Of a DNA stretch of 64,000 nucleotides, positions 16,462 to 23,353 are shown piece after piece. The translations under genes and the position numbers were made by a program. The DNA comes from Ferrovibrio sp. MS7 (lineage in GTDB: Bacteria; Pseudomonadota; Alphaproteobacteria; Ferrovibrionales; Ferrovibrionaceae): assembly GCF_038404985.1 (NCBI RefSeq), contig NZ_JBBKBA010000001.1, positions 1,268,001-1,332,000 of the forward strand, written 5' to 3'. Under the pieces are notes generated by a model that worked only from the letters and a program-made list of their open reading frames with translations, was not told the origin of the DNA and did no database searches. Within the stretch, counting starts at the first letter, position 1; each line of letters starts with the position of its first letter.

Positions 16462-16704
16462 ATGCTTGAACTGCGCCCGAATTGCGAATGCTGTGGCCGT
16501 GACCTGGCCCCGGATTCTGCCGATGCCCGCATCTGCTCCTTCGAATGCACCTTCTGCGCCGATTGCACCACCGGCACGCTTTCGGGCCACTGCCCGAATT
16601 GCGGCGGTGAATTGCTGCGCCGCCCGATCCGTCCGGCCGAGAAGCTGGCGAAATTCCCCGCCAGCACCACGCGCAAGGTGAAGCCGCAAGGCTGCGCCGC
16701 CTGA
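16462..16704 (+). CDS. DUF1272 domain zinc-ribbon protein
   Basis: 80 residues. Multiple paired cysteines ([19 protein letters not shown] and HCPNCGGEL) form a compact zinc-ribbon-like fold typical of DUF1272. The C-terminal part is basic. GGGGGAGG lies directly upstream of the ATG. The stop overlaps the glpK start by one base (TGATG), so it is co-translated with glycerol kinase, although no functional link is known to me. Confidence 0.85.
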
Positions 16705-18206
16705 TGTCCGCCCGTCACGTCATCGCGCTCGACCAGGGCACGACCTCGACCCGCGCCATCGTGTTCGATGCAGCCGGCGCCGTGCGCGGCGTAGCGCAGC
16801 GTGAATTCCCGCAGCATTACCCCGCCGATGGCTGGGTCGAGCATGATGTCGAGGATATCTGGCGCGATACGCAAGCCGTGCTGCGCGAGGCTTTGGCGCG
16901 GGCCGGCTTGCGCCCTCAGGATATCGCAGCACTCGGCATCACCAATCAGCGCGAAACCACCGTGATCTGGGATCGCGCCACCGGCCAGCCGATCCACCGC
17001 GCCATCGTGTGGCAGGATCGCCGCACGGCGGATACCTGCGCGCAACTGCGCCAGTCTGGCGCCACCGCCCTGGTGCAGGCCAAGACCGGCCTCCTGATCG
17101 ACAGCTACTTCTCGGCCACCAAGATCGCCTGGTTGCTCGACCATGTACCCGGCGCGCGGGCACGGGCCGAACGCGGCGAACTCTGCTTCGGCACCATCGA
17201 TTGCTTTCTGCTCTGGCGCCTCACCGGCGGCCCGGGACAGTCGGCGTGTCATGCGACCGATGCCACCAATGCCGCCCGCACCATGCTGTTCGATATCGTG
17301 CGGCAGCAATGGGATGAGGAACTCTGCGCGCTGTTCCGTGTGCCGCCTGCCTTGCTGCCCGAGGTGCGCGACTGCTCCGGCATGTTTGGCGCCACCAAAG
17401 CCGATCTGCTCGGCAGCGCCATTCCGATCACCGGCATGGCCGGCGACCAGCAGGCCGCCACCTTCGGCCAGGCCTGTTTCCAGCCCGGCATGATGAAATC
17501 CACCTATGGCACCGGCTGCTTCGCCCTGGTGAATATCGGCGATAAGCCGGTGATCTCCAACAACCGCCTGCTCACCACCGTTGCCTATCGCCTCAACGGC
17601 AAGCCGACCTATGCACTGGAAGGCTCGATCTTCGTGGCCGGTGCCGGCGTGAAATGGCTGCGCGACAAGCTGAAAATCGTCAAGGATGCCGCCGAGACGG
17701 CGGCGCTGGCGGCCAGCGTGCCCGACGGCCATGGCGTCTATGTGGTGCCGGCTTTCGTCGGCCTCGGCGCGCCTTACTGGGACTCGAATGCGCGCGGCGC
17801 CATCCTCGGCCTGACGCTGGATTCGTCCGCCGCCCATATCGCGCGCGCCATGCTGGAAGCCGTCGCCTACCAGACCCGCGACCTTACCGGCGCCATGATC
17901 GCCGATGGCGCCGCCTCCACGAAGGCTTTGCGCGTCGATGGCGGCATGGTGGCGAATGACTGGCTCTGTCAGTTCCTTGCCGACATGCTGAATGTCGCCG
18001 TCGAACGCCCGCGCGTCATCGAAACCACGGCGCTGGGCGCGGCCTATCTCGCCGGCCTGGCGGTCGGCGTCTATCCCGGCCTCGATGCCATCTCGTATGC
18101 CTGGCAATGCGAGCGCCGCTTCGAGCCGCGCATGGGCGAGCAGCAGCGCCAGCATCTCTATGCCGGCTGGCAAGCGGCGGTGCAGCGGGTACTGAGCGGG
18201 GGATGA
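16704..18206 (+). CDS. glpK: Glycerol kinase GlpK
   Basis: 500 residues, standard length. [15 protein letters not shown] near residue 7 is the FGGY ATP-binding start; [22 protein letters not shown] and [10 protein letters not shown] are GlpK-specific, and [18 protein letters not shown] is the C-terminal FGGY signature. It phosphorylates glycerol to glycerol 3-phosphate in the cytoplasm. No glpF, glpD or regulator is adjacent. It runs convergently towards the methyltransferase gene of the AT-rich island, 33 bases away. Confidence 0.95.
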
Positions 18207-18239
18207 TATCAGCACAAGGAAATAATAATGCGGCCGGCT

Positions 18240-19130
18240 CTAATAATGCGTTCGCTTTTTTATTTGATAATTTTGATGATCTATATTTTGTGTTGTTTCC
18301 CGTTGATTTATCGGAGAATAGCCAACGCAGATAGCTAATTCTGTGCTCAAGCACCTGCTGGCATTGTTGCCACTAATTACACTGTGTCGCGGCAACTCGA
18401 CAAATTCTCCTAAAGGTTCGTATATTTCTCGAATGGAAGGGTGATTGGCATTTGTAACAAGGCACATTGCACCGCGTTTTCTCGCACCCTCTACAGCATC
18501 TCTCAATCTAAGTTGATCTCCCCATCGGAAAATTTTCTGATTGTATTTCACAAAGCCGTTTTTGTTGTGGCGTACTGTATAAGGGGGGTCAATGAAAATG
18601 AAATCTCCTTGCCCAGCCTTATCAATTGTGGATTGAAAGTCTCCCGCGATCAAATCGAACCCATTTAGCGCATTTGAAATTTGGCAAAAATCATCGGTGT
18701 CAAAAAGGATATTGTCTTTAGTGCCGCGAGGAACATTAAATTCTCCTTTTAGATTCTCCCTATATATCCCGTTAAAGCAGGTTCTATTTAGATAGATGAA
18801 GCGTGCCGCTTCATAATACATTGAGGAGCCCTTTTTTGAGCGAGCTATATAGTAGTACTCATCTGAATGCTTATCTCTGAAGTTTTTCAGATTCCTTAGC
18901 ACCTTCTGAGGGGCATTTTTTATTGCCAAATAACAGTTGATCAGAGATGAATTGGTATCCGAAAGAACACCATATTGCGGCAGGATACTGAAAAAGACTG
19001 CCCCACTGCCTAAGAATGGTTCAAAATATTTCCCAAATTTCACCGGAAATAAATACGGGTGATTTCTGACAAGCCATCTCTTTCCGCCTGCCCATTTAAG
19101 AAATGGCTGCACTTTATGCCTCCATATCAT
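18240..19130 (-). CDS. D12-class (Dam-type) N6-adenine DNA methyltransferase
   Basis: 296 residues. The N-terminal PFLKWAGGKRWLV and FEPFLGSGAVFF (S-adenosylmethionine-binding FxGxG) and the catalytic DPPY in FIFIDPPYTVRHN are the diagnostic motifs of Dam-like enzymes, in the alpha-class order. RFIYLNRTCFNGIYREN is the conserved target-recognition-side segment. It methylates adenine in a short DNA site, possibly GATC, though specificity cannot be read. Its start overlaps the end of the upstream DGQHR gene by 17 bases, so the two are one operon. AT-rich codon use marks it as foreign. Confidence 0.92.
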   Translation of the reverse strand: MIWRHKVQPFLKWAGGKRWLVRNHPYLFPVKFGKYFEPFLGSGAVFFSILPQYGVLSDTNSSLINCYLAIKNAPQKVLRNLKNFRDKHSDEYYYIARSKKGSSMYYEAARFIYLNRTCFNGIYRENLKGEFNVPRGTKDNILFDTDDFCQISNALNGFDLIAGDFQSTIDKAGQGDFIFIDPPYTVRHNKNGFVKYNQKIFRWGDQLRLRDAVEGARKRGAMCLVTNANHPSIREIYEPLGEFVELPRHSVISGNNASRCLSTELAICVGYSPINQRETTQNIDHQNYQIKKRTHY

Positions 19131-21412
19131 TCAGGCGTTCATATATGAACTCAAGCAATTCAATATCACTGTCTTCATATTTTCTGCCGTACGGATGCGC
19201 GTTGACGCGCCGAATCTCATTTAGCTTTAGAAGCCAGCCGACATACTTTGCTTGCCCTTTTTTTTCGTTGGGCAGCTTGATGTTCATCGTTTCCTTGAAC
19301 ATGTCCCAGTTTGGTGTGCACTCAATTATTTTTTTGAGATCTACAAGGTCTAGATAGTTTTCAGCAGGCATACGTGAGTTGTCATCGATCCGTTTTGAAT
19401 AAGCCTCTTTCTTTATTTCCTTAAATGGAACGCCTTTGTCAAAGTACTCATTCACTCCATAATTTTGTTTCAAAATTTTTATTACGTGTCCGTGCACGCG
19501 ATCAATTATTTGCTTTGTGAGTGAGTCTCCCCGCACGGCCTCTGCTTCGTCTCGTTCTGAAAGTAAGCGATCAAGATCCGGCGGGTTGAAGGCTTCAAAT
19601 TCAGAGCGAACAATTTTGCAGAGTTCGGCATAGTATCTCGGTGGACCTCCGGAGCCAAATGGCTGCTTAAATCGTCTCGAAAAATCTAGGTCATCTGCTT
19701 CCATAATAATACTCACTACTGGAGCAAGTAGCGGCTTTATTTGTTCCACTAAGTCTGATGGCTCCAGCGTGTGAGGTTCTTGACCCGTCGAAGTGCGAAT
19801 ATGCTCGCAGAGCGATGCCAGTAGTCGGATGTGCCCTTGTACACCTATGTTGCTGCACAAATATCCTGCGCGTCCCAACTCCCAGCGCGCTTGATTAGCC
19901 TTCTCTATAATGGAGAAATATTCTGTCAGACCCTCACAAAGTGCATGAACACTTTCCTCTGGAGAGTTTCTATAAAAAGGTCCGGGCGTAATTATGCCGG
20001 ACTTAGATTCCACCCCCAAAAGCTTGGCGGCTAGTATTCCTTTCTTTATCTCTGAGATTGTTAATGGAGCAGCTTCGCTTTCGGAAATATCAGCAGATTT
20101 TATTCTATCTTCGAATGGATTCCCTGTTTCGGCAGACAACAGATCGAGTGATCGTGCGATGATGGCGCCGCACCTTTCGTGATGGCTCTCAGAGGATAAT
20201 TTTAATTCGCCAGCGAGTTCGTCCAGTAGGCCGGGCGCGACCTTTTGTTGTTTACTGTTTATTGTTGTAAACAGTTCTGCTTCCTTAATTGCAGGGAGTT
20301 TTTCAAAAGCTAGGACAGGGAGAACGTGACTCTTTGCTTTTTCTGCTGTTTCCGTAAAGCCATATAGCCTATGTTGACCATCTATTATCCATATACTCTT
20401 AAAGCTATCTGGTAAGTACAATTGTCCAAAGGTTATTTGGCGGTCGTCAAAAGAAGTTTGTTTGTCAAAACGCACGGGACGTTTGAAGTTTGCAGTAATG
20501 CAATTTGGGAAGAAGCCACCTCGATCAAGATAAAGACCTATCTCTTTAAGACGGGATTTTTTTAGTACGCGCTGATACGCGGGTGCTCCGTCTGGATCCC
20601 GCAGGCCTCTATGATTTACGAATGCGATGGGTAGGAGGCGCGCCGCCGGCGCTAGAAAGAAAAAAGCCCATTGCCCTGCGAGTTTTGTACGAATCGCGGG
20701 AACAATGCAGTTCGCAAGGGATGGTATCTGCTGACTTGCTAAAAATTCTCCAAGAAACTGGTACTTCGCTGCTTTACCAACGTTTTTAGCAACTGTTTCG
20801 AAATAGCGAAGTTCTCTATCTTCAATTACATGAATATTATTCTCACCCGCTCGAAGCCGGTCTGGTTTTCCCCATATGATGTTACGCGTAGCAATAAGCC
20901 ACAAGAATTTCAGATTCGGCTCATTGAAGTGTTTTTTTATGGATTTCGCCAGCGGTCCCTTCAATGTGGAGAATTCGCCGATTTCTTTTTGTAGAGATTT
21001 ATTCTGCTTTTTTTCTGCTGATTTGCATTGAGCGACAATAACAACATCATCGATCCTTGCTATAACATCAATCTTCTTGGTGATCTGTTGTCCATCAATA
21101 GATAGGTTAACGTGAAAATTGCGTCCTTCGTTTAGACAGTCCGCGCCCAATTGGTACAGAACCGCCCATAGGCGATCCTCATGAATTTCATCGGCAGACT
21201 TGGACTTCTCGATTAAGATTTTTTTGTTTGCTAGCGCTCGGACTTCCTTCCACCCTTTTGATTCAGCGGCGGCTAATTTTTCAACTGATATTCGTGCTTG
21301 GAATAGGCGCTTTTTACGCTTTTTGAATTCTGCGATACGGGAATGTTTTTTCTAAAACCAATGGCCCCAATATTTCAACTTGCTTCTCTGTTTTTTGATT
21401 GTGATTGGGCAT
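19114..21412 (-). CDS. Multidomain DGQHR protein: PD-(D/E)XK-like N-terminus, DGQHR core, HEPN-like C-terminus (apparent 5' frameshift)
   Basis: From a TTG at 21150, 678 residues are open, but the same frame stays coding-like back to a TAG at 21352-21354 without any ATG or GTG. A second frame supplies MPNHNQKTEKQVEILG from an ATG at 21412. The two join if one T is lost from the six-T run at 21346-21351 (six A on the coding strand). Counting from the TTG, IDVIA (Asp28) and QCK (Gln41, Lys43) resemble a restriction-endonuclease-like core. IDGQHR (257-261) is the DndB/DGQHR motif. Near the end LNEIRRVNAHP gives the HEPN RNase R-x4-H pattern (Arg647, His652). It lies upstream of, and overlaps, the methyltransferase gene. 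A defence role is inferred. Confidence 0.7.
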
Positions 21413-21612
21413 GTAACGATCCCGCATAAGTCGCTTTATTTTTCTGAACTCTATCAATGTAAGAACAATTTTAAACTGAATATCTCAATCTTGTGTATTC
21501 TTCTTCCAGGGTGGTGCTTATTGGTAGATGAAGATTATATATTCATATTATTATCTTGTAATGTTCTTATTTTGATCTAGAATGCCAGCTCCCCCGACTG
21601 CAGGAGCCTGTC

Positions 21613-22341
21613 ATGCCCAAGGCGTATGACCCGTTCAAGGATGAGTCGCTGATTTATGGCCCGCCGCTGGATGAGGATGAATATGGCCCGGGGCGGAATC
21701 CGACGTCTCATGTTGTGCAGCCAGCGCCCAAGCCTGCCCCGAAGCCGAAGCGCCGGCGCTATGACTGGGTGCTGGCGGCCTCCCTGCTGGTGCAGGGCGT
21801 GGCGCCGGAAGCCATCGCGGCGCGGCTGGGCTGCTCGACCGAAAAACTGTGGCGCCAGATGAATGACAGCGGGCGCTTCCGTGCCTTGGTGGAAAAGGCA
21901 GTGCAGCGGCGCCGGCTGCTGGCGAGTTTCCAGGTGGAGGCGGCGGCGGGTGTGGCGCTGACCGGCGCCGTTGCCACCCCGGATGGTGCATCACCCCAGG
22001 ATGCGGCGCAGCTGCGCGAGCTGGGGCAGGTTGCTCAGGCCGTGCCGGTCGCCATCGAGCTGCATGACGCCACGGCCCCGGAAGCCACCGCGCTGGATGC
22101 GCGGCTGCGCCAGGCCGGCCGTCGCGCCAAGCCCTATCTCACCGACAAGCGCCGCGCCCGCCTGCTGGCTGAAATCGCCGCGATGCCGACAGCGGAGGAA
22201 TTGCGCGCATTGCAGCGGCGCGATTTCAGCCTGTTGCCGCGCAACCTCGCGCGCTTGGCCGAGGAGGCGGCCCTGGCCAAAAGGCTGGAGGACGAGGCCC
22301 GCGCCGCGCCGGCAGCGAATGGCGTCAATAACGCCGGATAA
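21613..22341 (+). CDS. Hypothetical protein with a putative helix-turn-helix segment
   Basis: 242 residues, not recognised as a characterised family. The first 45 residues are acidic then Pro/Lys-rich (PAPKPAPKPKRRR). Residues about 50-80 (LLVQGVAPEAIAARLGCSTEKLW) look like a homeodomain-type or small-terminase-like helix-turn-helix. The remainder is Ala-, Arg- and Leu-rich and mostly helical, with possible coiled coil near the C-terminus. GCAGGAG precedes the ATG. Base composition is GC-rich, so it belongs to the host side of the island boundary. The last codons already fall in the 10-base repeat that follows. Confidence 0.6.
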   Translation: MPKAYDPFKDESLIYGPPLDEDEYGPGRNPTSHVVQPAPKPAPKPKRRRYDWVLAASLLVQGVAPEAIAARLGCSTEKLWRQMNDSGRFRALVEKAVQRRRLLASFQVEAAAGVALTGAVATPDGASPQDAAQLRELGQVAQAVPVAIELHDATAPEATALDARLRQAGRRAKPYLTDKRRARLLAEIAAMPTAEELRALQRRDFSLLPRNLARLAEEAALAKRLEDEARAAPAANGVNNAG

Positions 22342-22430
22342 GCGCGAATAGCGCCGAATAAGCCGGAATAAGCAAAAATAAGGAGAAATAAGGAGAAATA
22401 AGCCGGAATAAGGAATTTTAAGGATGGATT
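22321..22430. repeat. Tandem 10-bp-period repeat, consensus AGNNGGAATA
   Basis: Eleven consecutive ten-base units keep register. They include AGCGCGAATA, GCGCCGAATA, AGCCGGAATA, AGCAAAAATA, two identical AGGAGAAATA and AGCCGGAATA again; the outer units are more degenerate. The array begins inside the last codons of the upstream gene (units GGCGTCAATA and ACGCCGGATA) and runs past its stop. The period matches one helical turn, so the A/T blocks face the same side of the DNA, which could curve it or present phased binding sites. Confidence 0.75.
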
Positions 22431-22487
22431 TGGCGGATTTCAGCCAGCGTGGATTTTTCAAACAGGAATGCGGTCCTGATTTAATGC

Positions 22488-22577
22488 CGTCATGGCCCGG
22501 CTTGGCCGGGCCATCCACGATTAGTTTTTTTACAAAAGAATGAACTCGTGGATGCCCTGCCTCCGCAGGGCATGACG
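22488..22577. repeat. Two-hairpin palindromic element with nested inverted repeat
   Basis: CGTCA (22488-22492) and TGACG (22573-22577) flank ATGGCCCGG-CTTGG-CCGGGCCAT (22492-22514) and ATGCCCTGC-CTCC-GCAGGGCAT (22552-22573). Between them ATCCACGA and TCGTGGAT form a further 8-base inverted pair around an AT-rich centre. It shares outer arms and a near-identical first loop with the copies inside the urease operon, so it is a third, diverged member of the same element type. Confidence 0.7.
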
Positions 22578-22603
22578 AATGGGGATTTCCTCCAATCTTC
22601 CTT

Positions 22604-22629
22604 GTCATTCCCGCGAACGCGGGAATCCC
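22604..22629. repeat. Short REP-like hairpin
   Basis: ATTCCCGCG (22607-22615), two-base loop AA, CGCGGGAAT (22618-22626): a perfect nine-base stem. It is preceded by TGTC and followed by CCC. The sequence style GTCATTCCCGCG...CGCGGGAATCC is widespread between convergent genes in proteobacteria. It may also act as a transcription barrier. Confidence 0.65.
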
Positions 22630-22741
22630 ATTTCACTGTTAGCCAATGGGTCTCTCTGTAAGCGCGCAAACGCTGAAGGCGTTTGTGGGCGCACAGGCCC
22701 GAAGGGCTTTCGCGAGGGTGACAGCGAAGAACAAAGGGCCG

Positions 22742-23353
22742 CTACCAGCCGCCGCGTGTCAGCCAGAGGTCGAGCAGGTCTAGGCTGTCATTGCCCCAGA
22801 AGGGTTCGCCGTCGGCGATGACGAAGGGCGAGCCGAACACGCCGCACTGCATCGAGGCCTCCACTTCATCGCGCAGCCTTTGCGCCACGCGCGGATCGGC
22901 CAGTGCCTCGCGCAGGGCGTCGCTGGCGACGCCGAGCGGCGCCAGCACGGCGCAAAGCTGCTCCAGGTTGCCCATGTCGTGGCCCTCGCGCCAATAGGCA
23001 CGGTAGATCGCCCGGGCGGCGCGCTTGGCCAGGGCCGGGTCCTGGTCGAACAGCCAGTAATAGGCGCGTGCCGGCGGCAGCGGATTCATGAATTCGTCGC
23101 GCGGCTGCCGCTTCATCTCGATGCCATGCAGGCGGCGGTAGCGCTCGACACTGCGCTCGATATAGGGGCCTTTCAGCGGCGTATCGAGCAGGGGCTTCAA
23201 GCCCATCACTTTCAGCACGCTGACGCCGAGCAGCATCGGGCGCCAGGTGGTGGTGCGGCCATGCTTCACCGCCAGTTCGTCGATGCGCAGCGAGGCGAAA
23301 TAGCCGAAGGGCGAGATGAAGTCGAAATAGAAATCCAGCGGTGGCTGCGACAC
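22742..23353 (-). CDS. 2-hydroxychromene-2-carboxylate isomerase-like protein (DsbA-fold, NahD family)
   Basis: 203 residues, typical length. The N-terminal LDFYFDFISPFGYFAS replaces the thioredoxin CXXC with a Ser-Pro-containing active site as in NahD/kappa-class GST enzymes. MQCGVFGSPFVIADGEPFWG near 165-185 is the conserved C-terminal thioredoxin-fold segment. The family uses glutathione in isomerising aromatic degradation intermediates, but many genomic members have other, unknown substrates. It lies 33 bases downstream of puuE on the same strand, last in the purine-degradation operon. Confidence 0.82.
   Translation of the reverse strand: MSQPPLDFYFDFISPFGYFASLRIDELAVKHGRTTTWRPMLLGVSVLKVMGLKPLLDTPLKGPYIERSVERYRRLHGIEMKRQPRDEFMNPLPPARAYYWLFDQDPALAKRAARAIYRAYWREGHDMGNLEQLCAVLAPLGVASDALREALADPRVAQRLRDEVEASMQCGVFGSPFVIADGEPFWGNDSLDLLDLWLTRGGW

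Follow-up and report, generated by a model that had tools for sequence, protein, structure and literature searches.

Proteins of the DGQHR/DndB type occur widely and little is understood of them; the present analysis links them to a single clade of methylases and to a number of dissimilar partners that can be exchanged. A precedent for part of this arrangement was given by Anantharaman et al. 2013, who listed a Swt1-like HEPN domain fused to ParB (Saro_3948 of Novosphingobium aromaticivorans) and operons combining HEPN, ParB and a methylase (MAE_28990) (PMC3710099). According to the same work, fusions of HEPN domains involve restriction subunits and not methylases, in the manner of a PrrC-like second line, and HEPN RNases were proposed to take over as this second line when restriction fails (PMC3710099). 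In the case of the locus described here, the three-domain version of a DGQHR protein would allow a single polypeptide to recognize DNA, to cut it and to cut RNA as well.

The locus is a cassette of two genes, a methyltransferase gene and a large DGQHR gene, at positions 18240-21427 (minus strand) of the window, i.e. the whole stretch of 64,000 nucleotides from Ferrovibrio sp. MS7 that was analyzed. It is flanked by glpK (16704-18206) and a DsbA-like gene (22742-23353). The GC content of the cassette is 0.431, compared to a mean of 0.637 in the window outside of it, and the lowest value of any 3.2-kb segment clear of the cassette is 0.585. In the sister species G008 and G006, a stretch of approximately 4.5 kb containing the cassette and a 242-aa gene (18207..22741) is missing, so that glpK directly precedes the counterpart of the 22742-23353 gene (with a gap of about 40 bp in G008). 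The DGQHR gene was detected in one of the 18 genomes of the family, namely the window genome itself, and is rare in the class and the phylum. Because the 4.5-kb stretch is missing from the sisters and the DGQHR gene from the rest of the family, the two-gene pair was most likely gained by horizontal acquisition.

The remainder of this stretch was also inspected. The 242-aa ORF (21613-22341) has a GC content of 69%, thus differing in composition from the cassette, and gave no match in the family search. For these two reasons it was left out of the module. Just past this ORF, a 10-bp direct repeat (ATAAGSSGGA-like) occurs seven-fold at 22318-22417, and parts of 22320-22742 match dozens of sites in the own and in the sister genomes, forming a dispersed short repeat family. 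Upstream of the DGQHR gene lies a promoter-like ATTACA-17-TATAAT (21534..21562, minus strand) with 10/12 matches, in a region where the count of such sites is not above the shuffled expectation.

The methyltransferase gene (18240..19112, minus strand) has an intact frame and encodes a Dam-type (D12 class) adenine methyltransferase. The D12 assignment, originally made by eye from the sequence, was borne out by matches to PF02086 (2.4e-45) and TIGR00571 (2.6e-63). The closest solved relative is DpnM (2dpm, 5.2e-50), and the DPPY motif and the GxG region are conserved. The gene probably starts at GTG 19112, which is located 6 nt past a GGAGG and one base past the stop of the upstream gene, while the listed ATG 19130 would overlap this gene. 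With the start at GTG 19112 the gene overlap disappears; thus, of the two overlapping AT-rich genes that had been reported at first, the AT-richness holds and the overlap does not if this start is correct. Regarding the target, the GRYK stretch of Dam that follows the FNVP motif is altered to G-T/S-K in the clade of the window methyltransferase, and therefore a GATC target should not be assumed. The arginine with which enzymes of the Dam type contact the final base pair of their site does align.

The large gene (19114..21427, minus strand) encodes a protein with PD-(D/E)xK, DGQHR and HEPN regions and shows full-length homology to L031-L037, L006, L009, L010 and L052. Its central part, the DGQHR (DndB / ParB-Srx fold) domain (19810..20700, minus strand), carries the DGQHR motif at residues 324-328 of the 745-codon frame. 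This domain had also been recognized by its motif and was corroborated by TIGR03187 (5.7e-37, residues 219-514, 128 bits vs a cut-off of 58.85) and PF14072 (1.6e-11, residues 218-375, 44.3 bits vs a cut-off of 29.1).

The N-terminal PD-(D/E)xK nuclease-like domain (20830..21180, minus strand) contains the conserved residues E58, D95 and Q108-C109-K110 in the 745-codon numbering, the last of which reads ECK in the relatives. PF09002 (Card1_endonuc) was matched by the N-terminus of 8/11 members with a best value of 2.6e-6, and other members matched Hjc, HSDR_N or NERD. A Foldseek search with an AlphaFold model (mean pLDDT 79) pointed to Cdn1/Card1/Can2 with a probability of about 1 and a best E of 2.7e-3. 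The N-terminus was therefore confirmed as a Card1-like PD-(D/E)xK domain, with support that comes via the relatives and not from the window copy alone.

In the case of the C-terminal Swt1-type HEPN-like domain (19117..19554, minus strand; R714-x4-H719), PF18731 was matched by 5/11 members (best 2.3e-5), with weaker matches to Abi_2 and HEPN_Apea. The R-x4-H motif is invariant in 12/12 aligned full-length copies, including those with a degenerate nuclease; L053 has lost it and also has an incomplete methyltransferase frame. The Pfam search with the window protein alone did not match a HEPN family, and a separate model of the C-terminus (pLDDT 78), when compared with known folds, returned no significant PDB match, with Csm6 at an E of 6. 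As this fold comparison is uninformative, the HEPN assignment rests on sequence, and in this sense the putative Swt1-type HEPN domain was confirmed through the relatives. Altogether, the check by domain models and structures that the sequence-only reading called for gave statistical support to both the nuclease and the HEPN domain in relatives: the nuclease-like N-terminus is upheld, with its Gln-Cys-Lys particular to the window copy, and the C-terminal HEPN is upheld as to family and motif, not as to a structural match of the fold. PDB sequence searches with the DGQHR protein or its profile yielded nothing useful, and PADLOC reported DndB/DpdB models, generic type II methyltransferase models and weak CARF/PD-(D/E)xK matches, and nothing else.

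Single-protein scans of genome contigs and of viral contigs returned DGQHR-domain matches or none, so that alignment queries were needed to find full-length relatives. Thirteen full-length copies including the window were collected (12 after merging the near-identical L036 and L037): the window, L006 (G159), L052 (G574), L031-L037 and L053 on viral contigs, L009 on plasmid pNL1 of Novosphingobium and L010 on a Rhizobium plasmid. The protein of L009 is presumably Saro_3948, given the species in common. Two further matches, L008 and L013 (an FbiC-like ORF), were discarded as false. The relatives show 26-49% identity. A methyltransferase of the same clade (46-55% identity) adjoins the large gene in 9/12 non-redundant copies, on the downstream side in part of them and on the upstream side in the rest. 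Judged by the co-occurrence criterion of the sequence-only reading, the pair is thus not a chance neighborhood.

The state of the nuclease was compared with the presence of the methyltransferase. An intact D..ECK triad of the nuclease was seen in 8/9 methyltransferase-linked copies, the window being D..QCK, and the motif is broken in all three unlinked copies (ECR, ECT and N..ECR). The association of an intact nuclease motif with methyltransferase linkage gave a Fisher p of 0.018, on few copies and about two independent losses. Among the observations, this retention of an intact nuclease where the methyltransferase is linked speaks most clearly for a joint action of nuclease and methylase. In the three unlinked copies, radical-SAM genes are found nearby: in L035 a B12-binding/radical-SAM gene overlaps the end of the large gene (L035:8246-9481), and in L009 (11831-13444) and L010 (11392-13023) a radical-SAM gene stands beside a second small DGQHR gene. 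The missing methylase together with these neighbors could hint at a different DNA mark.

Concerning function, we lean towards reading the family as a mobile immune module that resembles restriction-modification and has an abortive arm, the HEPN domain, built in. The domains and motifs, the linked genes and their recurrent pairing, the association of methyltransferase linkage with an intact nuclease motif and the horizontal acquisition are all features that can be read from the compared sequences; the activities would follow as described here. The Dam-clade methyltransferase would mark the DNA of the carrier. The DGQHR domain, with its ParB/Srx fold and probable NTP binding, would engage unmarked DNA, presumably by sensing unmethylated sites, and the PD-(D/E)xK domain may then cut this DNA. 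If restriction were blocked or overwhelmed, the predicted HEPN RNase would, as the presumed last event in this order, cleave cellular RNA, and the cell would stop.

The window copy itself departs from this picture. The main frame of the large gene runs from 21351 to 19117, followed by a stop at 19116-19114, and the resulting 745-codon frame contains no ATG, GTG or TTG before codon 68. Translation from ATG 21427 or 21412 yields MPNHNQKTEKQVEILGPLVLEK and soon meets a stop. The frame is lost at an A6 run (21346..21351, minus strand), where the upstream frame reads ...GPLVLEK and the downstream frame, one base out, reads KKHSRIAEFKKRKK. The N-termini of L032, L033, L034 and L006 are continuous across the equivalent place; therefore, the window gene is frameshifted in the present assembly. 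Programmed frameshifting at the A6 run was judged unlikely, as it would have to be a +1 shift, and the relatives do without one. A homopolymer sequencing or assembly error is a possible source. Of the ORFs with 150 aa or more in the colinear region of the sister G008, 28/29 match the window in a single frame, and the remaining one appears to be an antisense ORF; this argues against a generally poor sequence in the window.

In addition, QCK at the nuclease motif was found in the window copy alone, the other non-redundant methyltransferase-linked relatives having ECK (8/8). Some active PD-(D/E)xK enzymes carry D...QxK, so that the glutamine by itself is no proof of inactivity. Taken together, however, the frameshift and the replacement of E by Q make relaxed selection likely, and the window copy of the nuclease gene is probably impaired. 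With an intact methyltransferase frame beside a frameshifted effector carrying E108Q, the window module is most likely capable of methylation at most, and not of restriction. This copy is consequently a poor candidate for the phage challenge that had been suggested for it. The three-domain restriction or abortive-infection idea behind that suggestion gained support from the comparison of relatives, but it had overlooked both lesions of the window copy.

It is conceivable, if short of probable, that the window locus is a decaying pseudogene relic with no present function, which would be compatible with the restriction reading at the level of the family. The A6 frameshift, an E108Q found in this copy alone and a cassette that occurs in no sister genome all fit such a relic. 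Nevertheless, no stop interrupts the remainder of the 745-codon frame, in which DGQHR, R-x4-H and other invariant residues are preserved, so that any decay would be recent; moreover, the methyltransferase frame is intact and the frameshift could still be the homopolymer error mentioned above.

To place the pair in a wider context, the viral contigs were searched with the methyltransferase alignment. This delineated a clade with an SH-aLRT of 99, well apart from other Dams. A DGQHR gene lies within three genes in 36/43 non-redundant methyltransferases of the clade compared to 0/29 outgroup Dams (p = 1.5e-13). Of the remaining seven, three are accompanied by a HerA-type ATPase together with a protein of 450 aa, and four have neither this pair nor a DGQHR gene; among these four, the DGQHR gene of L067 is split by an insertion and L100 stops at the contig edge.

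Four architectures could be distinguished. Architecture A is the three-domain PD-(D/E)xK-DGQHR-HEPN protein with its methyltransferase. Architecture B (23 cases) consists of the methyltransferase and a DGQHR gene of ~390 aa preceded by a protein of 167-258 aa with hydrophobic segments, at least two of which were found by hydropathy in 22/22 of the small proteins examined. Architecture C (6 cases: L065, L073, L079, L082, L084, L086) combines the methyltransferase with a DGQHR gene of ~500 aa and a protein of ~440 aa, and architecture D (3 cases: L071, L085, L096) has the methyltransferase, the HerA-type ATPase and the protein of ~450 aa, with no DGQHR gene. On the methyltransferase tree, 14 architecture changes are needed and C is nested within a tight B group (L073), which indicates that partners were swapped under a retained methyltransferase. 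As the other branches have no recognizable nuclease, restriction cannot be what all DGQHR-Dam modules have in common.

Several details of these cassettes should be added. The B cassettes are found among L062-L098 (e.g. L063:5010-7506 and L081:4998-7585), mostly on prophage-like contigs, and their membrane proteins are dissimilar in sequence and constant in position. The ~440-aa family of C has no Pfam match and a conserved H-L-A-Y-Y-x-E-L-R-A stretch, while the ~450-aa protein of D is zinc-ribbon-like and belongs to no confident family. In L014 (358-3862), a C-like set of a ~500-aa DGQHR gene and a ~440-aa partner stands beside an MT-A70 methyltransferase and not a Dam.

Based on the wider clade, we tentatively suggest a shared-sensor scheme, for which the odds seem somewhat below even: one Dam-type clade may guard mostly prophage-borne immune modules, in which the DGQHR protein would sense the loss or absence of the mark and license interchangeable effectors. 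These effectors would be the fused DNase-RNase, the small multi-pass membrane proteins or the ~440-aa protein. The tie to a single clade makes what the DGQHR protein senses directly testable.

An alternative idea is that the DGQHR protein mostly regulates or assists the methyltransferase, with vestigial or structural nuclease and HEPN domains, the whole being an anti-restriction or epigenetic pair carried by phages. Models for such a role would be DndB, described as a repressor of dnd genes that is modulated by ATP, and DpdB, described as an ATPase that helps to insert a base (PMC4507180; PMC12839542). Furthermore, many carriers are prophages, where Dam-type methyltransferases can protect phage DNA, and in the window the methyltransferase is intact and its partner frameshifted. 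We nonetheless regard this idea as unlikely: a triad that is intact where the methyltransferase is present, and a HEPN R/H invariant in 12 aligned copies, would be unexpected for vestigial domains, and a simple regulator leaves the linkage of DGQHR genes to membrane proteins and other partners unexplained.

The genomic setting of the cassettes bears on a further explanation. Neighbors in several of them are tape-measure and tail genes, a terminase or a transposase, which places many clade cassettes in prophages. Restriction-modification pairs are known to act as post-segregational addiction modules. By analogy, the methylase could be the antidote and the DGQHR-nuclease-HEPN protein a poison killing cells that lose the cassette, with phage defence as a side effect. 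Linked genes on mobile, AT-rich DNA in plasmids, prophages and islands are in line with this proposal, which is hard to tell from defence by sequence. Most relatives, however, are located in prophage-like contigs beside tail or replication genes, a setting with less need for a stability function, and we consider addiction quite improbable.

In relation to DndB and DpdB, the window protein has in common the DGQHR domain of ParB/Srx fold working beside a DNA-modifying enzyme. DndB and DpdB lack PD-(D/E)xK and HEPN, in contrast to the window protein, whose partner is a Dam-type methylase. The equivalog cut-offs of both were missed by far (76.6 vs 450 bits for TIGR04172 and 57.2 vs 300 bits for NF041060), and dndC (TIGR03183) had no match in the whole genome, in keeping, as far as dndC goes, with the earlier remark that dndACDE is absent. 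Membership in Dnd was rejected on these grounds. GmrSD / BrxU and SspE are similar in that a ParB-fold NTPase fused to a nuclease acts as restriction factor, but they use DGQQR/DUF262 and HNH, whereas the window protein has DGQHR, PD-(D/E)xK, an added HEPN and a dedicated adenine methylase. As DUF262 and HNH (DUF1524) were unmatched in the Pfam search of the window proteins, a GmrSD type IV system was rejected as well.

PD-lambda-5, a prophage 'RM + Abi' system (PMC9519451), resembles the module in that a methylase and an effector are combined in a compact unit borne by a prophage. The methyltransferase weakly matches the PD-Lambda-5_B model; the DGQHR protein matched none of the PD-Lambda-5 models, so that component A stayed unmatched in a system defined by both components. 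Closest to type II restriction-modification of the DpnM/Dam class are the methyltransferase, with DpnM (2dpm) as nearest relative, and the PD-(D/E)xK partner; there, the partner is a classic REase, while here it is a multidomain NTPase-like protein of ~770 aa with putative cognate cleavage.

DGQHR-Dam modules are absent from the passages seen of PMC4619093 (GmrSD), PMC10853773 (Dnd reappraisal), PMC12704722 (ParB-fold survey), PMC12839542 (BREX diversity) and PMC9519451 (PD-lambda-5). The PD-(D/E)xK part, the linkage to a Dam and the methyltransferase-clade family appear undescribed in the literature searched, which was mostly open-access. The fusion idea has a precedent in the ParB-HEPN fusion of 2013 (PMC3710099). 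Hence the undescribed and isolated system of the sequence-only reading is less isolated than it seemed, being a branch of a larger family around one methyltransferase clade, with a relative tabulated in 2013. The MAE_28990 operons share with the module the gene set of HEPN, ParB and methylase. Saro_3948, from the species of L009, has the ParB fold and the Swt1-like HEPN in one protein, and the table of PMC3710099 names for it neither a PD-(D/E)xK domain nor a linked Dam. The three-domain chain would compactly unite restriction with suicide, a coupling that has been proposed for HEPN proteins.
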